Origin: Haloterrigena salifodinae
GTDB lineage: Archaea > Halobacteriota > Halobacteria > Halobacteriales > Natrialbaceae
NCBI RefSeq assembly: GCF_003977755.1
Contig: NZ_RQWN01000001.1
Coordinates: 1,194,995-1,258,994, forward strand
DNA: 64,000 bases
Reading direction: 5' to 3'
Under the pieces are notes generated by a model. It worked only from the letters and a program-made list of their open reading frames with translations, was not told where the DNA came from and searched no databases. This document shows positions 51,698 to 61,192 of the stretch, in pieces (the first letter of the stretch is position 1; each line of letters opens with the position of its first letter). The position numbers were made by a program, and so were the translations under genes.

Positions 51698-52405
51698 TCA
51701 GTAGTCGGCTCGGAGTCGTCCGACGTCGAGTCGGAGATAGTGCCACAGCGTCCCCGTCAGTCCGCAATCGGCGATCCGGCGACCCGAACTCTCGACTAAC
51801 ACCGCGGGACAGTAGCCCGTCGGATACCGGCGGCCGAGCAGCCGGCTGAACGCCGTGTCCTCGTTGGGGACCTCCGGGAACCCGCCGACGTCGTCGAACG
51901 CCCGCCGGTGGACGACGCAGTTGAACCCTGGGAGGATGGGCCACTCGAGGTGCGAGAAGACGCGGTTGATCGTCGCTGCCATCAGCATCGCCCGGCGCGG
52001 GCCGGTGATCCGACAGTAGGAACTGCCGGCCGCCAGCCCGTTCGCCTCGAGGTAGCCGAGCAGTTCGGTGAGGTAGTTGGCTCGCAGTTTCGTGTCGGCG
52101 TCGACGAATGCCAGCCACTCGCCGTCGGCGTGGGCCGCACCGAGGTTGCGGGCCGCCGCGATGCTCCTGCCGCCCTCGTCGAGGACGGTCGCGCCGTACT
52201 CGCGGGCGATCGCCGGCGTCGTGTCGCTCGAGTCGCCGTCGACGACGATCACCTCGATCGCGTACTCCGTGTCGAGTCCGGCGATGCTCGCGAGCGCGCC
52301 GCGGAGGTAGTCGGCCTCGTTGCGCGCCGGGATCACGAAGCTCACGTCCGGTCGGCCGTCGGGTCCGTCGCCGCGGTGCACCCGGGTCGTGTCACCCTCG
52401 TCCAT
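51698..52405 (-). CDS. Family 2 glycosyltransferase
   Basis: About 235 aa from ATG 52403-52405; an in-frame upstream start at 52507 would add 34 Ser/Thr-rich residues. VSFVIPARNEADYL opens the GT-A fold, VIVVDGDSSDTT binds nucleotide, and FVDADTKL is the DxD motif that holds metal and UDP or other sugar nucleotide. The EDTAFSRLLGRRYPTG segment supplies the ED catalytic region. Transfer of a sugar to a lipid or protein glycan is expected. It is the upstream neighbour of gvpA in transcription direction reversed. Confidence 0.85.
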   Translation of the reverse strand: MDEGDTTRVHRGDGPDGRPDVSFVIPARNEADYLRGALASIAGLDTEYAIEVIVVDGDSSDTTPAIAREYGATVLDEGGRSIAAARNLGAAHADGEWLAFVDADTKLRANYLTELLGYLEANGLAAGSSYCRITGPRRAMLMAATINRVFSHLEWPILPGFNCVVHRRAFDDVGGFPEVPNEDTAFSRLLGRRYPTGYCPAVLVESSGRRIADCGLTGTLWHYLRLDVGRLRADY

Positions 52406-52659
52406 CGAGATCTGATTCTCTCTCACCGACCGGCATAACGTCTCGGCGCTCGATTGCACCGATGACGTAGTATGGGTTCGAGACGGAGCGGAAATCATGG
52501 TAGACACTCACTACCAAACATATTATCTATCATGAACTTTTATTACCTCGGAGGCGCTACGGGTGAGTACAGATGTCGGTCGTACACGTAGCAGCGTAAA
52601 CTCGCCTCTCTTTCGACAAGTTCCCGTACCGTTCGACGACCTCACTACACCCGACCGAC

Positions 52660-52881: not shown

Positions 52882-53004
52882 ACTGCGACTGCGTTTCTCG
52901 GCGCGATCCAAACCGTCTTAGGAGCCGCAGTGGTAGCCTCGAGTGGCCGATGACGATTCACTCGCTCCGAGCCGGACTCGGCACCCGGTCGTGACGAGCC
53001 CTAT

Positions 53005-53032
53005 GAGTGCCGAGGCCATCGATTTACAGGTA
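53005..53032 (+). repeat. 28-bp intergenic repeat, copy R1
   Basis: gagtgccgaggccatcgatt followed by tacaggta. Copies R2 at 53488-53515 and R3 at 54426-54449 differ at few positions. It lies in noncoding DNA, although ATG at 53004-53006 opens a short 18-codon frame starting with MSAEAIDLQV. Confidence 0.6.
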
Positions 53033-53139
53033 ACATGTCTCATCTTTCACGGTATCTAAGACATTCCGAGAAGTCACAGGTAGGCGGGGAGAGGAATCAG
53101 TAAACCGGGGCATGTCACGGGTGCCTGTCACCTCAAGAT

Positions 53140-53289
53140 TCAGGAGTTATCTCGAGAGCGCAACTGCTGCGGTTCATCGAGGTGGTATCCGCCACCACCT
53201 CCATCGCCATCGTCGTCTGGACTACTACATCCAGCAAGCACAACCGTTGTGGCGACCACAGACGTTGTGAGAAATCGCCTCCGTTCCAT
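53140..53289 (-). CDS. Truncated-looking Tat lipoprotein, 49 aa
   Basis: ATG at 53287-53289 and TGA at 53140-53142. MERRRFLTTSVVATTVVLAG is a Tat-type signal with a lipobox (LAGC, Cys21), followed by SSPDDDGDGGGGG and a short polar end (YHLDEPQQLRSRDNS). That is a complete export and anchoring signal with almost no mature domain. It could be a true short surface lipopeptide, or the surviving 5' end of a decayed lipoprotein gene. It was below length cut-offs of standard gene calling. Confidence 0.45.
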   Translation of the reverse strand: MERRRFLTTSVVATTVVLAGCSSPDDDGDGGGGGYHLDEPQQLRSRDNS

Positions 53290-53732
53290 GAATGATGGTT
53301 GGTAACGTGGGACAATAAGTGTGTGGAGGGAGACGGGGTATTTTTCTACCCAAAATGTGGTCAGCTGCTATCTGTCACTCGACTCCTGAACCGAGATGGA
53401 CTTGTCTGGAGTAGATCCGAGTAGATCAACCTCGATTTCTATGCGCAGAGGTTCTAATACAGTGACACTCGTAAGTCGTTCCTGTTCGAATGCCGAGGCC
53501 ACTGATTTACAGGTACTAGTCAGCCCTCGAGACACCGCTGCAGTGACGCGACCGTCCCGAACTCGGTCCCGTCGAAACCGGTTCCGTGGCCACGTCGTCG
53601 ACCGTCGTTCAGTTCGTGCTGGTAACGCTCTCGATCCGAGCGGACCGCGCTGTCGTCCCGGAGGAGGAGCTCGTTATAGTGGGTGCAACTGCCGAGCGAT
53701 TCCTTTTGCTCTCAGTCGAGTAACTCGCATCG
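53290..53732. other. 443-base intergenic region with repeat R2
   Basis: No convincing gene; the plus-strand open frame (53396-53803) is Arg/Ser-rich and overlaps the gene at 53733. It contains repeat copy R2. Promoter for the gene at 53733 is likely near its right edge. Confidence 0.4.
53488..53515 (+). repeat. 28-bp intergenic repeat, copy R2
   Basis: gaatgccgaggccactgatt followed by tacaggta. It is preceded by cctgttc, which also precedes R3. Confidence 0.6.
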
Positions 53733-54266
53733 ATGCTCGACGACGACGTTCGACCGATGATGTCTCACCGGCTTCGACGGCAGATGGGACCCACGATCGA
53801 TAGAGTCGCGAAACGGTTCGGCCAGCCGGAGTACCGCGTCTGGCCAAAAGGATACGTCGCGACGGTCTCGGTTCCGATCGCGGAGGTAGAGACGAAGCTA
53901 CACGATGAGGGCTTCACCTGGGACCCGTTGAGCCTGTACCACTACACGCTGGTCGGCAACAAATCGGACGGGAGCTGGACGTACCGATCGTCCCGGCTCG
54001 CCAATCGACAACTCCACGTCGTCCTCTTCGAGCGGCGCCGCGGTCGGACCGACGTCTACGCACACGCCGAATACAGTTGGCTTCGTCATCCGCTCAAACA
54101 CGCCGAAGAGAAAGCGATTCGGCGATCGGACGGCGCTGCGACGATGCAGCGGGTGCTCGAGGCGTGGGACGTCGATTACACCCGCGAGTCGATCGTCACA
54201 CGGACGGTGCGACATACCCTGGCACGGCTTCGTGACGAACTCCTGCAACGGAGCGGCCGGTCGTAG
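53733..54266 (+). CDS. Hypothetical basic protein, 177 aa
   Basis: MLDDDVRPMMSHRLRRQMGP starts a helical protein with YRVWPKGYVATVSVPIAEVE, WTYRSSRLANRQLHVVLFER and HAEYSWLRHPLKHAEEKAIR (parts shown). It is unusually basic and Trp/Tyr/His-rich for a haloarchaeal protein. The start at 53733 could be at a later Met (53760). No family was recognised. Flanking intergenic repeats (R2 to R4) suggest it lies in a transferred or rearranged segment. Confidence 0.55.
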   Translation: MLDDDVRPMMSHRLRRQMGPTIDRVAKRFGQPEYRVWPKGYVATVSVPIAEVETKLHDEGFTWDPLSLYHYTLVGNKSDGSWTYRSSRLANRQLHVVLFERRRGRTDVYAHAEYSWLRHPLKHAEEKAIRRSDGAATMQRVLEAWDVDYTRESIVTRTVRHTLARLRDELLQRSGRS

Positions 54267-54425
54267 AACCGCTGGTGCGGTTTTCGGCGTCGCGTGCCGT
54301 GTCGAACTCGTCGAGTCGGGTATCGAGGAGAAATCGCTGAAACAGGCGAATGGATTCGATATCCCCACCAACTCCCGGAGTTCTAGTCCCTTTTAAGCTA
54401 ATCCAGCGGTACGCCGTACCTGTTC

Positions 54426-54449
54426 GAGTGCCGGGGCCTTCGATTTACA
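54426..54449 (+). repeat. Intergenic repeat, copy R3 (24 bp)
   Basis: gagtgccggggccttcgatt followed by taca; preceded by cctgttc as in R2. Confidence 0.55.
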
Positions 54450-54509
54450 TATCCCCTTCCTTGATCCGAAAAGGTACTCGAGAGAGCTGGACGTAAGAGA
54501 TCGCAACAG

Positions 54510-54522
54510 GAGTGCCGAGGTC
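54510..54522 (+). repeat. Intergenic repeat, partial copy R4
   Basis: gagtgccgaggtc, identical to the R1 start except for its last bases. It may be chance or a decayed copy. Confidence 0.35.
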
Positions 54523-54655
54523 TGCATCACTTACGAAGGGATGGTATCGTTACTGAACAGATGCATAGCGGAGCATCCACAACCAGTGTGAGACATTCGA
54601 TCGCCGGTCGGAATCAGACGGATTGATCGTCGGTGTCCAAGGCACGACCGTGGCC

Positions 54656-56437
54656 CTATCTGCCGTCGGGCAGCCCCAACTCGAGGACGTAGTACCGCTC
54701 GTCCTCGTCGCGGAGCGTGGCGACGACGCGGTGCTCCCGATCGAAGTTGGCCGCCGCTTCCTGGTGGACGAACAGGTACCTGATTCGATCGTTCGATTCG
54801 ACCCGCGTCTCCTCGACCGGCTCGATCGACCGATCGGAGTAGAACACCAGCGAGTGAAACCCGCCGGCCCGCGTGGATTCGGGGACGACGAAGATCGTCG
54901 CGTCCGGGGGAATCTGGTGGTCGATCAGCGTCCCCGCGGCCTCCTGTTGCTCGTCCAACGCCGAGCCGCCCATTTCGACCGGTGCGGCGGTCGTGGACAC
55001 GAGCAGGAGCGCGAGGGCTACGAACGCGACGGTCCGGAGCCGCGAGACGTCGACGTCGCGCCACCGCCGCCGCAGCGTCGCGTCGAGCGGCCGCTCGGCG
55101 ATAACCGCGATCGCAGCGGCGACGAGGACGAGTGCGAACGCGACGCCGCCGGGAACGTGATCCTGCAGTCGGTACTGGACGAGCGAGGTCACGTCGAGTC
55201 GAAACGTAAAGACCAGCGCGAGGACGCAGCCCGTGACGACGCCGCCGACCGCGAGTGAACGGTCGATCGATCGGGGCGACGCGACCAGCGAGACCGAGCG
55301 ACCGACCAGCAGCCCCGCCGGAACGTACAGTGGCAGGATGTACCAGGCCTGGTTCCCGGTGACCGAAAAGAAGGTGAAGACGCTCGCGGCCCACCACAGC
55401 AGGAACGTCGTATCGCGCAGCGGTTGCGAGCGCCCCTCAGTAACCCGAACACGAACCGCGACGACGGCGACGACGCCGACCGCCGGGAGCAGAAAGTACA
55501 GCCACGGATCGAAGTACGAGGGAAGGTGTCGGAAGTACGGATAGGACATGAAGCCGAACGTCGTTTCGTGATACGGTGGGAACGAGCCGCTCGCCCGAGC
55601 GATCACGTGCTTGAAAACGAGTTCCTCGAGGAACAGGCCACCGTGACGGCGCCAGGCGAGGATCGGCCACGGCAACGCCAGTGCGAGCGTTACCGCCGCA
55701 CCGATCGCCGCCTCTCGCGAGAGGAGCCGTCGACGCCCGAGCAGATCGAAGGGGACCAGCCCGAGGAGCGCCAGCGGGTACGTGCCGGCCGCCAGTCCTT
55801 TGACGAGGAGTGCGCCCGCCGCCGGGAACCCCGCGTACGCGAGGTATCGTCGATCGTCGGCGACGCCCTTCCAGACGAGGTAGACGAACAGGGTGCCGAA
55901 GAACACGAGCGGGATATCGGTTCCGCCGTTCCGACCGCCGTTCATCCCCGCGAACACCTGCGGCGTCGTCAGCCAGACCAGCCCGGCCACGAATCCCGCC
56001 CTGCGGTCGAAGAGGTCCCGACCGAAAACGTAGGTGAGCACGCCGGTCGCGATCGCGAACGTCGCCGACGGAAAGCGGGCGCCGAACGCGGTGGCACCGA
56101 AGACGCGCATCGAGATCGCCTGCAGCCAGAACGCACCCGGGGGCTTCTGCAGGAAGAGCATCTCGGCGACGACGGCCCCGTCGGCGGCCCAGTCGACGCG
56201 AGGGACGACCCACGACCCGCCGCGGCTCAGCCGCCGCGCGATCGACGCGTAGATCGCTTCGTCGAAGGACTGGAGCGTCGACCCGCCAAGGTCGACGTAG
56301 TAGATGTACGCGCCGGCGGCGAGGAGGACGGCGATCGGGGTTCGGTCCCGATCGGTCGGGCGGAGGGTTCTGACCGAGTCGATCAGCATCGATGCGGCGA
56401 TTCGAGGTCCGGTACGCACTCGAGACGATATCCTCAT
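54656..56437 (-). CDS. Family 39-like membrane glycosyltransferase
   Basis: 593 aa with about 11 membrane helices and a C-terminal periplasm-facing domain. SFDEAIYASIARRLSRGG has the acidic first-loop motif (D-E) of ArnT/PMT-type enzymes, and MLFLQKPPGAFWLQA the KPP motif. Such transferases use a lipid-linked sugar donor and act on the outer side of the membrane. The C-terminal 130 residues are polar and probably extracellular. Its context of other glycosyltransferases suggests S-layer or surface glycan work. Confidence 0.82.
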   Translation of the reverse strand: MRISSRVRTGPRIAASMLIDSVRTLRPTDRDRTPIAVLLAAGAYIYYVDLGGSTLQSFDEAIYASIARRLSRGGSWVVPRVDWAADGAVVAEMLFLQKPPGAFWLQAISMRVFGATAFGARFPSATFAIATGVLTYVFGRDLFDRRAGFVAGLVWLTTPQVFAGMNGGRNGGTDIPLVFFGTLFVYLVWKGVADDRRYLAYAGFPAAGALLVKGLAAGTYPLALLGLVPFDLLGRRRLLSREAAIGAAVTLALALPWPILAWRRHGGLFLEELVFKHVIARASGSFPPYHETTFGFMSYPYFRHLPSYFDPWLYFLLPAVGVVAVVAVRVRVTEGRSQPLRDTTFLLWWAASVFTFFSVTGNQAWYILPLYVPAGLLVGRSVSLVASPRSIDRSLAVGGVVTGCVLALVFTFRLDVTSLVQYRLQDHVPGGVAFALVLVAAAIAVIAERPLDATLRRRWRDVDVSRLRTVAFVALALLLVSTTAAPVEMGGSALDEQQEAAGTLIDHQIPPDATIFVVPESTRAGGFHSLVFYSDRSIEPVEETRVESNDRIRYLFVHQEAAANFDREHRVVATLRDEDERYYVLELGLPDGR

Positions 56438-56733
56438 TCGCCGATAACCGCGATCCGATCGAAAAGATCCTGTCCCTGCCTATTCTCGGTCGTATCCTAT
56501 GCTATTGGTTCTATTCAACTAATTCAGTAATCGACGCGGAGTGAAGAAAACGGTACGAAGCGATTCGGTCCCGAGTACTCGATCATCCCAACGAACGCGC
56601 TCGAAGACGCCGTGGATGCCCTCTCCTCCCTGCAGAACATCTTCGAGACGCAAGAGAGTCCGAAGCTGCGGTGTCTTCTGGAGCAGCCCTGCCGAACTCG
56701 AGTCGGTCCCAACCCCGACGCATCCGAATCCAC
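56438..56733. other. Intergenic region, no gene seen
   Basis: 296 bases between two minus-strand genes. Open frames are Arg/Ser-rich and unconvincing. The upstream promoter for the gene at 54656-56437 should lie near 56440-56520, where the sequence is AT-richer. Confidence 0.35.
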
Positions 56734-58038
56734 TCACCGACTGCCAGTGAACCGCCGCCAGCCGAAGACGACTCCCTCCGCACAGAGCCACAGGACCCCG
56801 AAGGCGATGCCGACGACGTGCAGTATCTGCGGGAGGTGCATCCACGTCGGGAAGACGTACTGGGCCATGGCCTCCCACTCGCGAATCGTCGCCGTGATGG
56901 CGCCGGGTTCGTCCTCGACCGCGGTCAGTTCGCTCCCCGGCGGGACGTCCGACTGTTCGCCGGCGCCGATGCGATCGGCTTCGTACGCCAGCGGAATGAC
57001 CGTCCCGTCGGGATCGCCGAACTGCCAGACGATCTCGCCGTCGGGATCGACCTCGAGCACGCGGTTGTTTCGGGAGTCGGTGATGAGCGTGTTGCCGTTG
57101 GGCAGTCGGTCGGCGTCTCGAGGCCACTGGAGGGGATCGGTCGCGGGACCGGTGTAGCGCCAGATGCGTTCCTCGGACTCGACGTCGAGTTCGACGATGC
57201 GGCCGTTCTCGCTGTCGGCGACGACCATCGTCCCCTGATCTTCGATGCGGTGGGGGTTGTGCTGTTTGTCCAATACGTCGTGGTTTCCGGGCTCGCCGAT
57301 GACGTCGACCACCTCGTCGGTCTCCGGATCGACCTCGATGATCACGTCGAAGTTGCGGATGCTCAGCTGGAAGTTGCCGTTCTCGAGGCGGTCGATGTCG
57401 TTCATGTGGGTCCAGTCGTCGTGTTCACCCGCTTTTTCGGGGCCGCCGTACTCCTCGTAGAACGGCGTGCCGGGCGTCAGGTGGTCTTCGGCGTGCCACT
57501 CCCAGGTGATCTCGCCGTCGTGGTCGACGGTGAACGCGCGATCGTTCCCCATATCGACGATCGCCGTCTCGCCGTTCTCGAGTCGCTCGACGTCGTGGAC
57601 CTCGTGCCAGGCGATGAACTCGTCGTACCAGTCGTACTCCCAGACGACCTCGCCCGACTCCTTGTCGATCTCGACGACGCGATTGCGGACGCAGTGGCCG
57701 TCTTTCTCCTCGTACTCGAGGTATTCCTCGTCGCAGTCTTCGGCGAGCCGCTTGACGGCGACGGCTGCCAGCACCGTCCCCTCGTCGAGCTGTTCGACCC
57801 CGAACACTCTCGATTCCGGTACCGACCACTCCCAGGCGACCTCACCGTCGGGCGTCAGTTCGACGATCCGGCCGGTCTCGTCGTACGAATGGACGCCGAC
57901 GAGCGTGTTCCCGGGATACCGCCCGTCGTCGTTGACGACTCTGTGTTCGCGTTCGATAACGACCGCCTGGACCCCGAGCGATGCGATCAGAAGGGCGATA
58001 ACTACGGCGGCGACGGTGACGCGGGTTCGCTGGTTCAT
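56734..58038 (-). CDS. Arylsulfotransferase-like membrane-anchored propeller
   Basis: 434 aa. One N-terminal membrane helix (about 8-28) is followed by a beta-propeller with repeated WEW/WEYD blades and conserved His in WHEVHDVERLENG and WTHMNDIDRLENG, and a C-terminal helix (about 400-425). The pattern matches arylsulfotransferase (ASST) proteins; the mature domain faces outside. Bacterial ASST transfers sulfate between phenols. The real substrate in archaea is unknown; sulfated glycans of S-layer proteins are one candidate, as the neighbour is a glycosyltransferase. Confidence 0.82.
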   Translation of the reverse strand: MNQRTRVTVAAVVIALLIASLGVQAVVIEREHRVVNDDGRYPGNTLVGVHSYDETGRIVELTPDGEVAWEWSVPESRVFGVEQLDEGTVLAAVAVKRLAEDCDEEYLEYEEKDGHCVRNRVVEIDKESGEVVWEYDWYDEFIAWHEVHDVERLENGETAIVDMGNDRAFTVDHDGEITWEWHAEDHLTPGTPFYEEYGGPEKAGEHDDWTHMNDIDRLENGNFQLSIRNFDVIIEVDPETDEVVDVIGEPGNHDVLDKQHNPHRIEDQGTMVVADSENGRIVELDVESEERIWRYTGPATDPLQWPRDADRLPNGNTLITDSRNNRVLEVDPDGEIVWQFGDPDGTVIPLAYEADRIGAGEQSDVPPGSELTAVEDEPGAITATIREWEAMAQYVFPTWMHLPQILHVVGIAFGVLWLCAEGVVFGWRRFTGSR

Positions 58039-58267
58039 ACGATTCGATCCACGGAGGGAGTCGTACGGAACTGTACAGTGAAGAGACTCTTAGCGCTAAT
58101 CGGCGTCTCCGTTGGAAGTCAGGATTTCTATGACGTCGGAGCGGCGAGGGCGTTCGAATACGATCGTCCACCGGCGACGATCCTCGACCAGTGACTCGCG
58201 ACGATCGATCTACACGCCTGCAACGTGATCCGACCGGTCTCGACGACCCGATCGCGGCGGGCTCTTG

Positions 58268-58696: not shown

Positions 58697-58826
58697 CTAC
58701 CGGCACGTAGGACACCGCGAGTCAAAACGGGACGTCCGCTCGAGCACGGTCATCGGTGCCCTCGCGTTCAGTGAAATCGTTCGCCGCCGAGAGACCGGTT
58801 CGCGAGGTGTGCTCGGGTAGAGGAGA

Positions 58827-59851: not shown

Positions 59852-61192
59852 ATGTCTGGCAAATATGACCTCGTTATCGTCGGCGGTGGGATCAGCGGTG
59901 CGTCGCTTCTATACACCACCGCGAAATTCTCGGACGTCGACTCCATCGCACTGATCGAGAAAGAACGGGAGATCGCCGCGATCAATACGAACCACACGAA
60001 CAACTCCCAGACGCTCCACTTCGGCGATATCGAGACCAACTACACCCTCGAGAAGGCCGAAGAAGTCAAAGAAGGGGCAGAGCTCCTCGCGGGCTATCTC
60101 GAGAACCACGACGACGACCGCGAGATGCACGACAAGCGCAGCAAGATGGTGCTGGGCGTCGGCAAGGCGGAAGTCGCGGAACTCGAGCAGCGCTACGAGG
60201 GCGAGGGGTTCGGCGACCTCTTCCCAAAACTCCAGATGATCGAGCGCGAGGAGATCGCCGACTACGAGCCGAAGGTCGTGGAGGGTCGGGACCCCTCGAA
60301 GGAGATGCGCGCGTTACAGACGCCGGACGGCTACGTCGTCGACTACGGTGCGGTGACACAGTCGTTGGTCCGACAGGTCAAGGACGAATCCAACGTCGAC
60401 GTCTTCACCGGGACGAAAGTCGAGGACATCACGCCGACGCTCGACGGCTACACGATCGAGACGACCGACGGCCGGTTCGACTGTGAGGCCACCGTCGTCG
60501 CCGCCGGCTCGCACAGCCTCCAGATCGCCAAGGAACTCGGCTACGGCGAGGGCAAAGTGTTGCTCCCCATCGCGGGCAGTTTCTTCCTCGCGGACGATCT
60601 GCTCAACGGGAAGGTCTACACACTCCAGATGAAGAAGCTCCCCTTCGCCGCGGTCCACGGCGACGCGGACGTCCACGACGACTCTCTCACGCGGTTCGGC
60701 CCGACCGCGAAGCTCGTCCCGACCCTCGAGCGCGGTCGCATCTCGACCGTAAAGGACTTCCTCGACGTGTTCGGGCTGAACGCGGCGGCGTTCCTCAGTT
60801 ACGCGAACATCCTGTCCGACCGGATCCTCCTGCCGTACGTCCTCCGGAATCTCGTCTACGACGTCCCCGAGGTCGGCCCGCGACAGTTCCTCCCGCACGT
60901 CCAGAAGGTCGTCCCGAGCGTCGAACTCGAGGACATCGAGCGCGCGAAGGGGTACGGCGGCGTTCGGCCGCAGATCGTCGACACGACCAAGAAATCCCTC
61001 GACATGGGCGAGGCGAAGATCGTCGGCGACGACATCATCTTCAACATCACGCCGTCGCCGGGCGCCTCGACCTGTCTGAAAAACGCCGTGCAGGACACCC
61101 GGCAGGTCCTCGAGTTCCTCGACGGCGACTACGAGTTCGACGAGGAGGCGTTCCGCGCGGAGACGATCGACAACTTCCCGCGCGCGAACTGA
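59852..61192 (+). CDS. Malate:quinone oxidoreductase-like FAD enzyme
   Basis: 446 aa. LVIVGGGISGASLLYT (7-22) binds FAD, NTNHTNNSQTLHFGDIETNY (45-64) is a characteristic MQO segment, and NITPSPGASTCLKNAVQD (near 395) closes the active site. The family oxidises malate with quinone as acceptor at the membrane; some related haloarchaeal enzymes act on other hydroxy acids. The start ATG follows an AT-rich promoter. No membrane helix is present, as expected for a peripheral protein. Confidence 0.85.
   Translation: MSGKYDLVIVGGGISGASLLYTTAKFSDVDSIALIEKEREIAAINTNHTNNSQTLHFGDIETNYTLEKAEEVKEGAELLAGYLENHDDDREMHDKRSKMVLGVGKAEVAELEQRYEGEGFGDLFPKLQMIEREEIADYEPKVVEGRDPSKEMRALQTPDGYVVDYGAVTQSLVRQVKDESNVDVFTGTKVEDITPTLDGYTIETTDGRFDCEATVVAAGSHSLQIAKELGYGEGKVLLPIAGSFFLADDLLNGKVYTLQMKKLPFAAVHGDADVHDDSLTRFGPTAKLVPTLERGRISTVKDFLDVFGLNAAAFLSYANILSDRILLPYVLRNLVYDVPEVGPRQFLPHVQKVVPSVELEDIERAKGYGGVRPQIVDTTKKSLDMGEAKIVGDDIIFNITPSPGASTCLKNAVQDTRQVLEFLDGDYEFDEEAFRAETIDNFPRAN

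Follow-up and report, generated by a model that had tools for sequence, protein, structure and literature searches.

We believe that the short repeats around the gene at 53733-54266 are very probably attachment sites of integrative elements that target the gene for the box C/D guide RNA sR-tMet. On that reading the window (the whole 64,000-nucleotide stretch of Haloterrigena salifodinae DNA that was analysed) would hold a decayed tandem of such elements, with the 53733-54266 gene as cargo. In the mechanism that we propose, haloarchaeal integrative elements with tyrosine integrases would enter the chromosome at the 3' terminus of the sR-tMet gene, and every element would bring with it the last 13 bases of that gene (the core). 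Because the element supplies these bases, insertion should keep the RNA gene whole on the left side and add a further core on the right side. If elements inserted next to one another again and again, and integrases and other genes were then lost, tandem units bounded by cores would result. The window would contain one such tandem, made up of a 0.48-kb geneless unit and a 0.94-kb unit with a 177-aa gene, ahead of a mobile glycosyltransferase block; we call it decayed because copies 2-4 carry mismatches and no integrase lies near. Recombination by an integrase at this core, the crossover point and the order of events are what we infer from the sequence comparisons given below.

The sR-tMet gene and copies of its 3' end

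The predicted sR-tMet gene, our proposed insertion target (attB), occupies 52945..53017 on the plus strand. It matches RF02163 with 66.3 bits (E 3.9e-12) against a gathering cut-off of 50, which makes it a member of that family, and it is the single match above the cut-off in the window's genome. RF02163 was matched in 124 of the 125 family genomes (123 of them above the cut-off), with a second match in three genomes, every one below the cut-off. For counts at the sRNA locus, 83 of 91 loci fitted the sRNA pattern, a few genomes being present twice; the eight without the pattern include L066 and L081, both matched by Infernal. The RNA gene stays whole: 81 of the 83 sRNA loci preserve GAGTGCCGAGG exactly. 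Its guide is complementary, without mismatch, to GCACTCATAGGG at G000:C1:281456-281467 of the window's genome, which by our reading by eye lies in an intron-containing tRNA-Met gene. ARAGORN with bacterial settings did not call this tRNA-Met candidate, and on the window it called one tRNA, away from the repeat site. For this guide, the N-plus-five rule points to the wobble C, C34 of tRNA-Met. In PMC4033218, sR-tMet is given as the Cm34 guide in haloarchaea, after Joardar et al. 2011.

The 13-base core GAGTGCCGAGGCC equals, by sequence comparison, the last 13 bases of the sR-tMet gene. Copy 1 (53005..53017) is exact and includes the guide end GAGTG, box D CCGA and terminal stem GGCC (boxes assigned by eye). 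Copies 2 (53488..53500), 3 (54426..54438, followed by ttcGATTTACA) and 4 (54510..54522, the partial copy) have one mismatch each. All four lie on the plus strand, at the positions reported by the sequence-only reading, which also correctly saw cctgttcg ahead of two of them (those at 53488 and 54426). The copies are thus direct repeats of the 3' terminus of an RNA gene, as is characteristic of a site-specific integrative element. The pattern GARTGCCGRGGCCNNNGATTTACA, allowing three mismatches, has three matches in the window, where 0.01 would be expected. A genome-wide count, which that reading had proposed as a check, gave three copies of the 24-base form at the same tolerance in the whole 4.96-Mb genome, all at this single locus and in one direction, and the reversed-pattern control gave zero. 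The 13-base core alone, allowing two mismatches, gave 7 matches against 4.24 expected, which is not above chance (15 of 100 shuffles reach 7). For this reason the partial copy at 54510 rests on comparison with genome G072, where a block 94.7% identical to the window starts at 54510 and an exact core is aligned with copy 4. RNA folding of the four copies (43-46-nt stretches, RNA parameters) gave z values of 1.01, -0.45, 0.69 and 1.65, none stronger than shuffles in what is a weak test.

These observations bear on several of the explanations offered earlier. That the copies are MITE ends or CRISPR repeats has a negligible chance of being right: short repeats do flank a gene, but their spacing is irregular (483, 938 and 84 bp from core to core, in line with the earlier judgement that this is not a CRISPR array), their orientation is direct and they are confined to a single locus. 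No terminal inverted repeats of the MITE type were seen around the copies, which are neither dispersed nor found in more than one direction, and those on the sRNA's contig all stand behind one RNA gene, so the suggestion of MITE ends finds no support. The same is true of the suggestion that they are remnants of a repeated gene start, given that a predicted box C/D RNA gene has copy 1 as its 3' end, though ATGAGTGCC does resemble a start.

Strand bias and homology boundaries at the core

The sequence-only reading took a lack of further copies and of conservation in relatives to count against a repeat family, but we find the repeat (at most two mismatches) in 68 of the 125 family genomes, with 91 matches. 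These comprise 46 at the sRNA 3' end, 31 downstream on the same strand at 0.48-90 kb, one upstream at 118 kb on the same strand and 13 on other contigs. Thus 77 of the 78 matches on the sRNA's contig lie on the sRNA's strand, either at its 3' end or within 100 kb downstream, while the opposite strand of that contig has none in the 125 family genomes. Of the 14 off-contig or upstream matches, 12 carry one or two mismatches. Extra cores in 62 oriented loci (781 kb) show the same bias, with 31 forward against 0 reverse for exact cores and 12 against 0 for cores with one mismatch; those with two mismatches number 25 forward against 47 reverse and are therefore chance overall. This count is a strand comparison and not a survey, because part of the loci (L044-L063) were selected for carrying the repeat.

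The pattern extends beyond the family. Among 391 genomes in a class-wide sample, 55 contain it at one mismatch or fewer. Of these 55, 15 are not members of the family, and the sRNA stands directly before the core in 6 of 10 loci fetched from outside-family genomes (judged by eye). A search of a genome-contig collection returned 10 matches. Seven are haloarchaeal, with the RNA gene's end in front in six (it is absent in L007), and three are bacterial and look like chance.

The core also coincides with breaks in homology. Alignment of the left flank with five same-genus genomes ends between 53017 and 53043, which is at the core or no more than 26 bases beyond it: at 53017 (G027), 53018 (G023 and G024), 53028 (G025) and 53043 (G026). 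Alignment of the right flank restarts at about 58258 in G026 and at 58813 in G025. The same-genus comparison thus outlines a variable island from the RNA gene to the conserved right flank, at 53018..58250, with an approximate right edge. On its left is a GT2 glycosyltransferase gene (51698..52507, minus strand; PF00535), which 38 of 55 loci carry on that side of the sRNA. On its right, sequence matches identify an FAD-dependent oxidoreductase gene (59852..61192, plus strand), seen within the fetched DNA in 12 of 55 loci at 0.34-8.6 kb from the sRNA, a distance of 6.84 kb in the window. Two genomes of another comparison within one genus, G018 and G019, align through the core and 12 bases more, after which G018 has about 1.5 kb of extra DNA before the alignment resumes; this DNA contains a 94% relative of a G027 gene with a choloylglycine-hydrolase family match. 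Occupied and less occupied sites therefore differ at the core, as seen both in this pair and in the same-genus homology ends. Judged from these alignments, the core marks a homology boundary, and the feature extends beyond its earlier description to take in the RNA gene at copy 1 and variable DNA to about 58250.

Units, arms and integrases

Unit 1 (53018..53487; 483 bp core to core) contains no ORF of 100 aa or more. It matches G027 with 87% identity (397 bp) and G078 with 78% (410 bp), each match beginning at a core. In this unit, as in others, one end alone is common to relatives. Unit 2 (53501..54425; 938 bp core to core) has inverted arms, ACAGGTAC and GTACCTGT, and holds the 177-aa gene (53733..54266, plus strand). 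The protein matches phrog_6788, of unknown function, and gave no Pfam or NCBIfam match. At E 1e-10 it has relatives in 89 of 125 family genomes. Just two of these, in G062 and G031, are close (74% and 78%); a core of the same hot spot stands 1.3 and 1.5 kb to their left, and no core was found to their right within the DNA fetched. We take this gene to be probable hot-spot cargo.

Beyond unit 2 lies a mobile block (54510..56497) with a PMT_2 glycosyltransferase gene (54656-56437, minus strand; PF13231). It is 94.7-95.2% identical in G027, G072 and G094, and thus found in four genomes of three genera including the window's, while the flanks common to the window and G072/G094 are about 70-80% identical against about 95% for the block. 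By these identities, the block is a recent transfer. It begins at a core in two of the four genomes, and none is visible at its right end. The core does not account for all changes in the island.

Wider comparison points to cores at both ends of some units. Among 31 units of 0.3-5.5 kb, three kinds of module occur whole in another genus at a different array position (L047/L062, 87.5% identity; L046/L053, 92.4%; L104/L194, 85.6%), with cores within 2 bp of both ends, some of these bounding cores carrying one or two mismatches; the comparison accepted two two-mismatch cores (L047 4813 and L052 4219). The L047/L062 module is the sole plus-strand homology found between its two loci. Two further pairs, L007/L207 and L049/L050, were kept outside the three modules because they represent the same DNA and one genus, respectively. 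Most of the 31 units have no core-to-core partner. Module cargo is varied and includes an FAD oxidase, a MIP channel, an acetyltransferase, a DHH protein, a methyltransferase with a regulator, and a PQQ propeller. Phage_integrase is absent among the 25 listed of the 54 families that match the 53 small-unit ORFs, and one of these ORFs matches a transposase among the families listed.

One explanation for such exchange is that modules are swapped by homologous recombination between conserved flanks, the cores being mere fossils of old insertions. No core is visible at the end of the glycosyltransferase block, which has about 95% identity in four genomes, and left flanks are conserved in many genomes, as this explanation would predict. 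We nevertheless consider it unlikely, given that loci have modules in common that are delimited by a core at either end, although the positions differ and no neighbours are shared, and that flank identity is 70-80% as against 95% for the block.

An alternative that we take more seriously, while favouring decay of whole elements, is that the units are live cassettes. In that case, integrases of larger elements would act in trans, and a unit would be excised as a one-core circle and inserted behind the RNA gene or another core in the manner of an integron. The three modules that are complete, bounded by cores and placed at another array position in another genus would fit, as would the isolated homology of L047 and L062 and a varied cargo whose 25 listed families do not include Phage_integrase. 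Against this, no circles were seen, most of the 31 units have no core-to-core partner, some ends depend on cores with one or two mismatches, and decayed larger elements that moved together with a neighbour could produce the same picture.

The arms that flank the cores are what we would expect of attachment sites. In the window, the right arm after copy 1 is atcgatttacaggtaa (53018..53033, plus strand), which is GATTTAC-like, and the left arm of copy 2 (53470..53487, plus strand) is of the gtaagtcgttcctgttc type, also seen in several relatives. DNA right of the sRNA core is of several kinds, the GATTTAC-like arm occurring at 33 of 83 sRNA loci, and this right arm, GATTTAC/GGTACC-like, could be either an element arm or native flank. 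We also observed GATTTAC followed by GGTACC-like sequence after the core in several other haloarchaeal families (L202, L203, L205 and L208). For each of 43 units, the right arm of one end was compared with the left arm of the other. Inverted matching averaged 6.14 for own pairs versus 5.27 for swapped pairs (sd 0.19), the own-pair value being reached by 1 of 20000 shuffles, and direct matching 5.93 versus 5.10 (sd 0.16), reached by none of 20000; the 43 units are not all independent because L049 nearly duplicates L050. Cores with one mismatch in L060, L132, L114, L127 and L100 were left out as likely chance, the two-mismatch copy L047 4813 was added, and seven long elements were paired by hand. 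Many single units show no clear arm match. Among the clear pairs, ATCATACGTATGAT stands at either end of a 90-kb stretch of G008, and in G011 TATGGATAGA is paired with its complement. Matching of own arms is to be expected if both ends derive from one attP.

Given these results, we regard it as very unlikely that the copies are regulator binding sites or functional duplicates of the end of the RNA gene. The copies are indeed short, intergenic and conserved in sequence, but only copy 1 is joined to the remainder of the RNA gene, neighbouring genes vary between genomes, homology breaks at the core and arms match within units. Of the three guesses in the sequence-only reading, binding sites nevertheless came nearest, in that the copies appear to act as sites for an integrase; the part that we disfavour is a regulator as their partner.

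Tyrosine integrases do adjoin cores in relatives. The integrase gene beside a core in G083 matches PF00589 (E 3.2e-26). Its nearest NCBIfam model is the archaeal XerA (XerA_Arch, 207.9 bits versus a cut-off of 220), and with the integron-integrase model TIGR02249 it scores 69.9, below the cut-off of 265. It is preceded by a 168-aa gene without Pfam match, whose product may be a candidate accessory factor of recombination. Separately, we note that this gene (L047 2854-3360, minus strand, and relatives) immediately precedes the integrase in many genomes and that a shortened 74-aa form adjoins cores in G022 and G102.

Relatives of the G083 integrase at E 1e-40 or better are present in 18 of 125 family genomes. 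Thirteen lie downstream of the sRNA on the same contig within 95 kb (that of G024, at 64 kb, counts as downstream only if its contig is circular), one (G049) is about 275 kb off and four are on another contig. In nine of these 18 genomes, a core lies no more than about 160 bp from the start of the pair formed by the integrase and its 168-aa partner (G083, G017, G004, G024, G008, G050, G113, G062 and G015, the cores of G004 and G113 having one mismatch); in the other nine, no core of one mismatch or fewer was found within about 160 bp. The window's genome has no relative of this integrase at E 1e-40, and no integrase was found near the window's repeats, the nearest Phage_integrase match being partial, below cut-off and 61 kb off. 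In G008, G017, G024, G050 and G083, cores are 43-95 kb apart with the integrase at the far end, an arrangement that suggests large integrated elements behind the RNA gene in these five genomes.

Searches for mobile forms covered viral and plasmid collections, which contain little such DNA, and yielded neither an excised circle nor a free attP, nor any sign of a recombination event. Viral contigs gave no match to a 21-base pattern, and plasmids gave one weak unrelated match to a 56-base site query. Two 16-base patterns matched 6 and 4 viral contigs, whose surroundings are unlike the arms and which we take as chance. Among phage records, 16 have an integrase match, with 23-28% identity among the 15 listed. 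A separate observation is an integrase at 67% identity on the 114-kb Natrinema salinisoli plasmid NZ_CP084471, where the sole core in the 11 kb around it has two mismatches.

Relation to known integrative systems

The arrangement that we propose resembles archaeal tyrosine-integrase elements at tRNA genes, in which the element has the 3' end of the RNA gene and restores the gene on insertion, the integrase gene adjoins the site (here in nine of the 18 genomes with the integrase) and arms flank it. It differs in having a box C/D guide-RNA gene, and not a tRNA gene, as its target. The portion of PMC8371274 that we consulted names tRNA genes as the main targets of archaeal integrases, and the words sRNA, snoRNA, 7S RNA and non-coding RNA are absent from that text. 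Our searches of the open-access literature brought up nothing that described insertion at a box C/D RNA gene. We therefore file insertion at the 3' end of an RNA gene as known for archaeal integrases at tRNA genes, and the box C/D target as apparently new within the open-access literature.

The window's units have att-like sites on both sides and no integrase inside, as do CIMEs. In bacteria, according to the sections of PMC5704250 consulted, tandem accretion of decayed elements is known, and CIMEs keep their att sites after loss of integrase and transfer genes and may stand in tandem behind one gene. The units described here are, in contrast, archaeal and 0.3-5.5 kb long, and some are common from core to core to different genera.

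Integrons and CALINs offer another parallel, with a unidirectional row of sites, small modules, varied cargo and often no integrase nearby. They differ from the present system, whose integrase is nearest archaeal XerA and far under the integron-integrase cut-off, whose sites have no strong fold (by a weak test) and whose anchor is an RNA gene. Archaeal integrons have been described in PMC9668308, in the available text of which 'halobact' and 'haloarchae' do not occur. We advance only tentatively, as short of probable, the idea of an integron-like haloarchaeal system in which sR-tMet would be the fixed entry, its last 13 bases the common recombination site and XerA-like integrases the enzymes acting in trans. 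Modules of one or two genes, without an integrase of their own, might then be captured unidirectionally and exchanged between genera.

If our preferred explanation of integrative elements at the sR-tMet gene is true, a methylation-guide RNA gene joins the known targets of archaeal integrases. A 13-base tag would then delimit gene modules, its longer pattern being present in 68 of 125 family genomes and 55 of 391 class-wide. The finding also makes testable the capture of small cassettes in archaea by a route other than integron attC sites.
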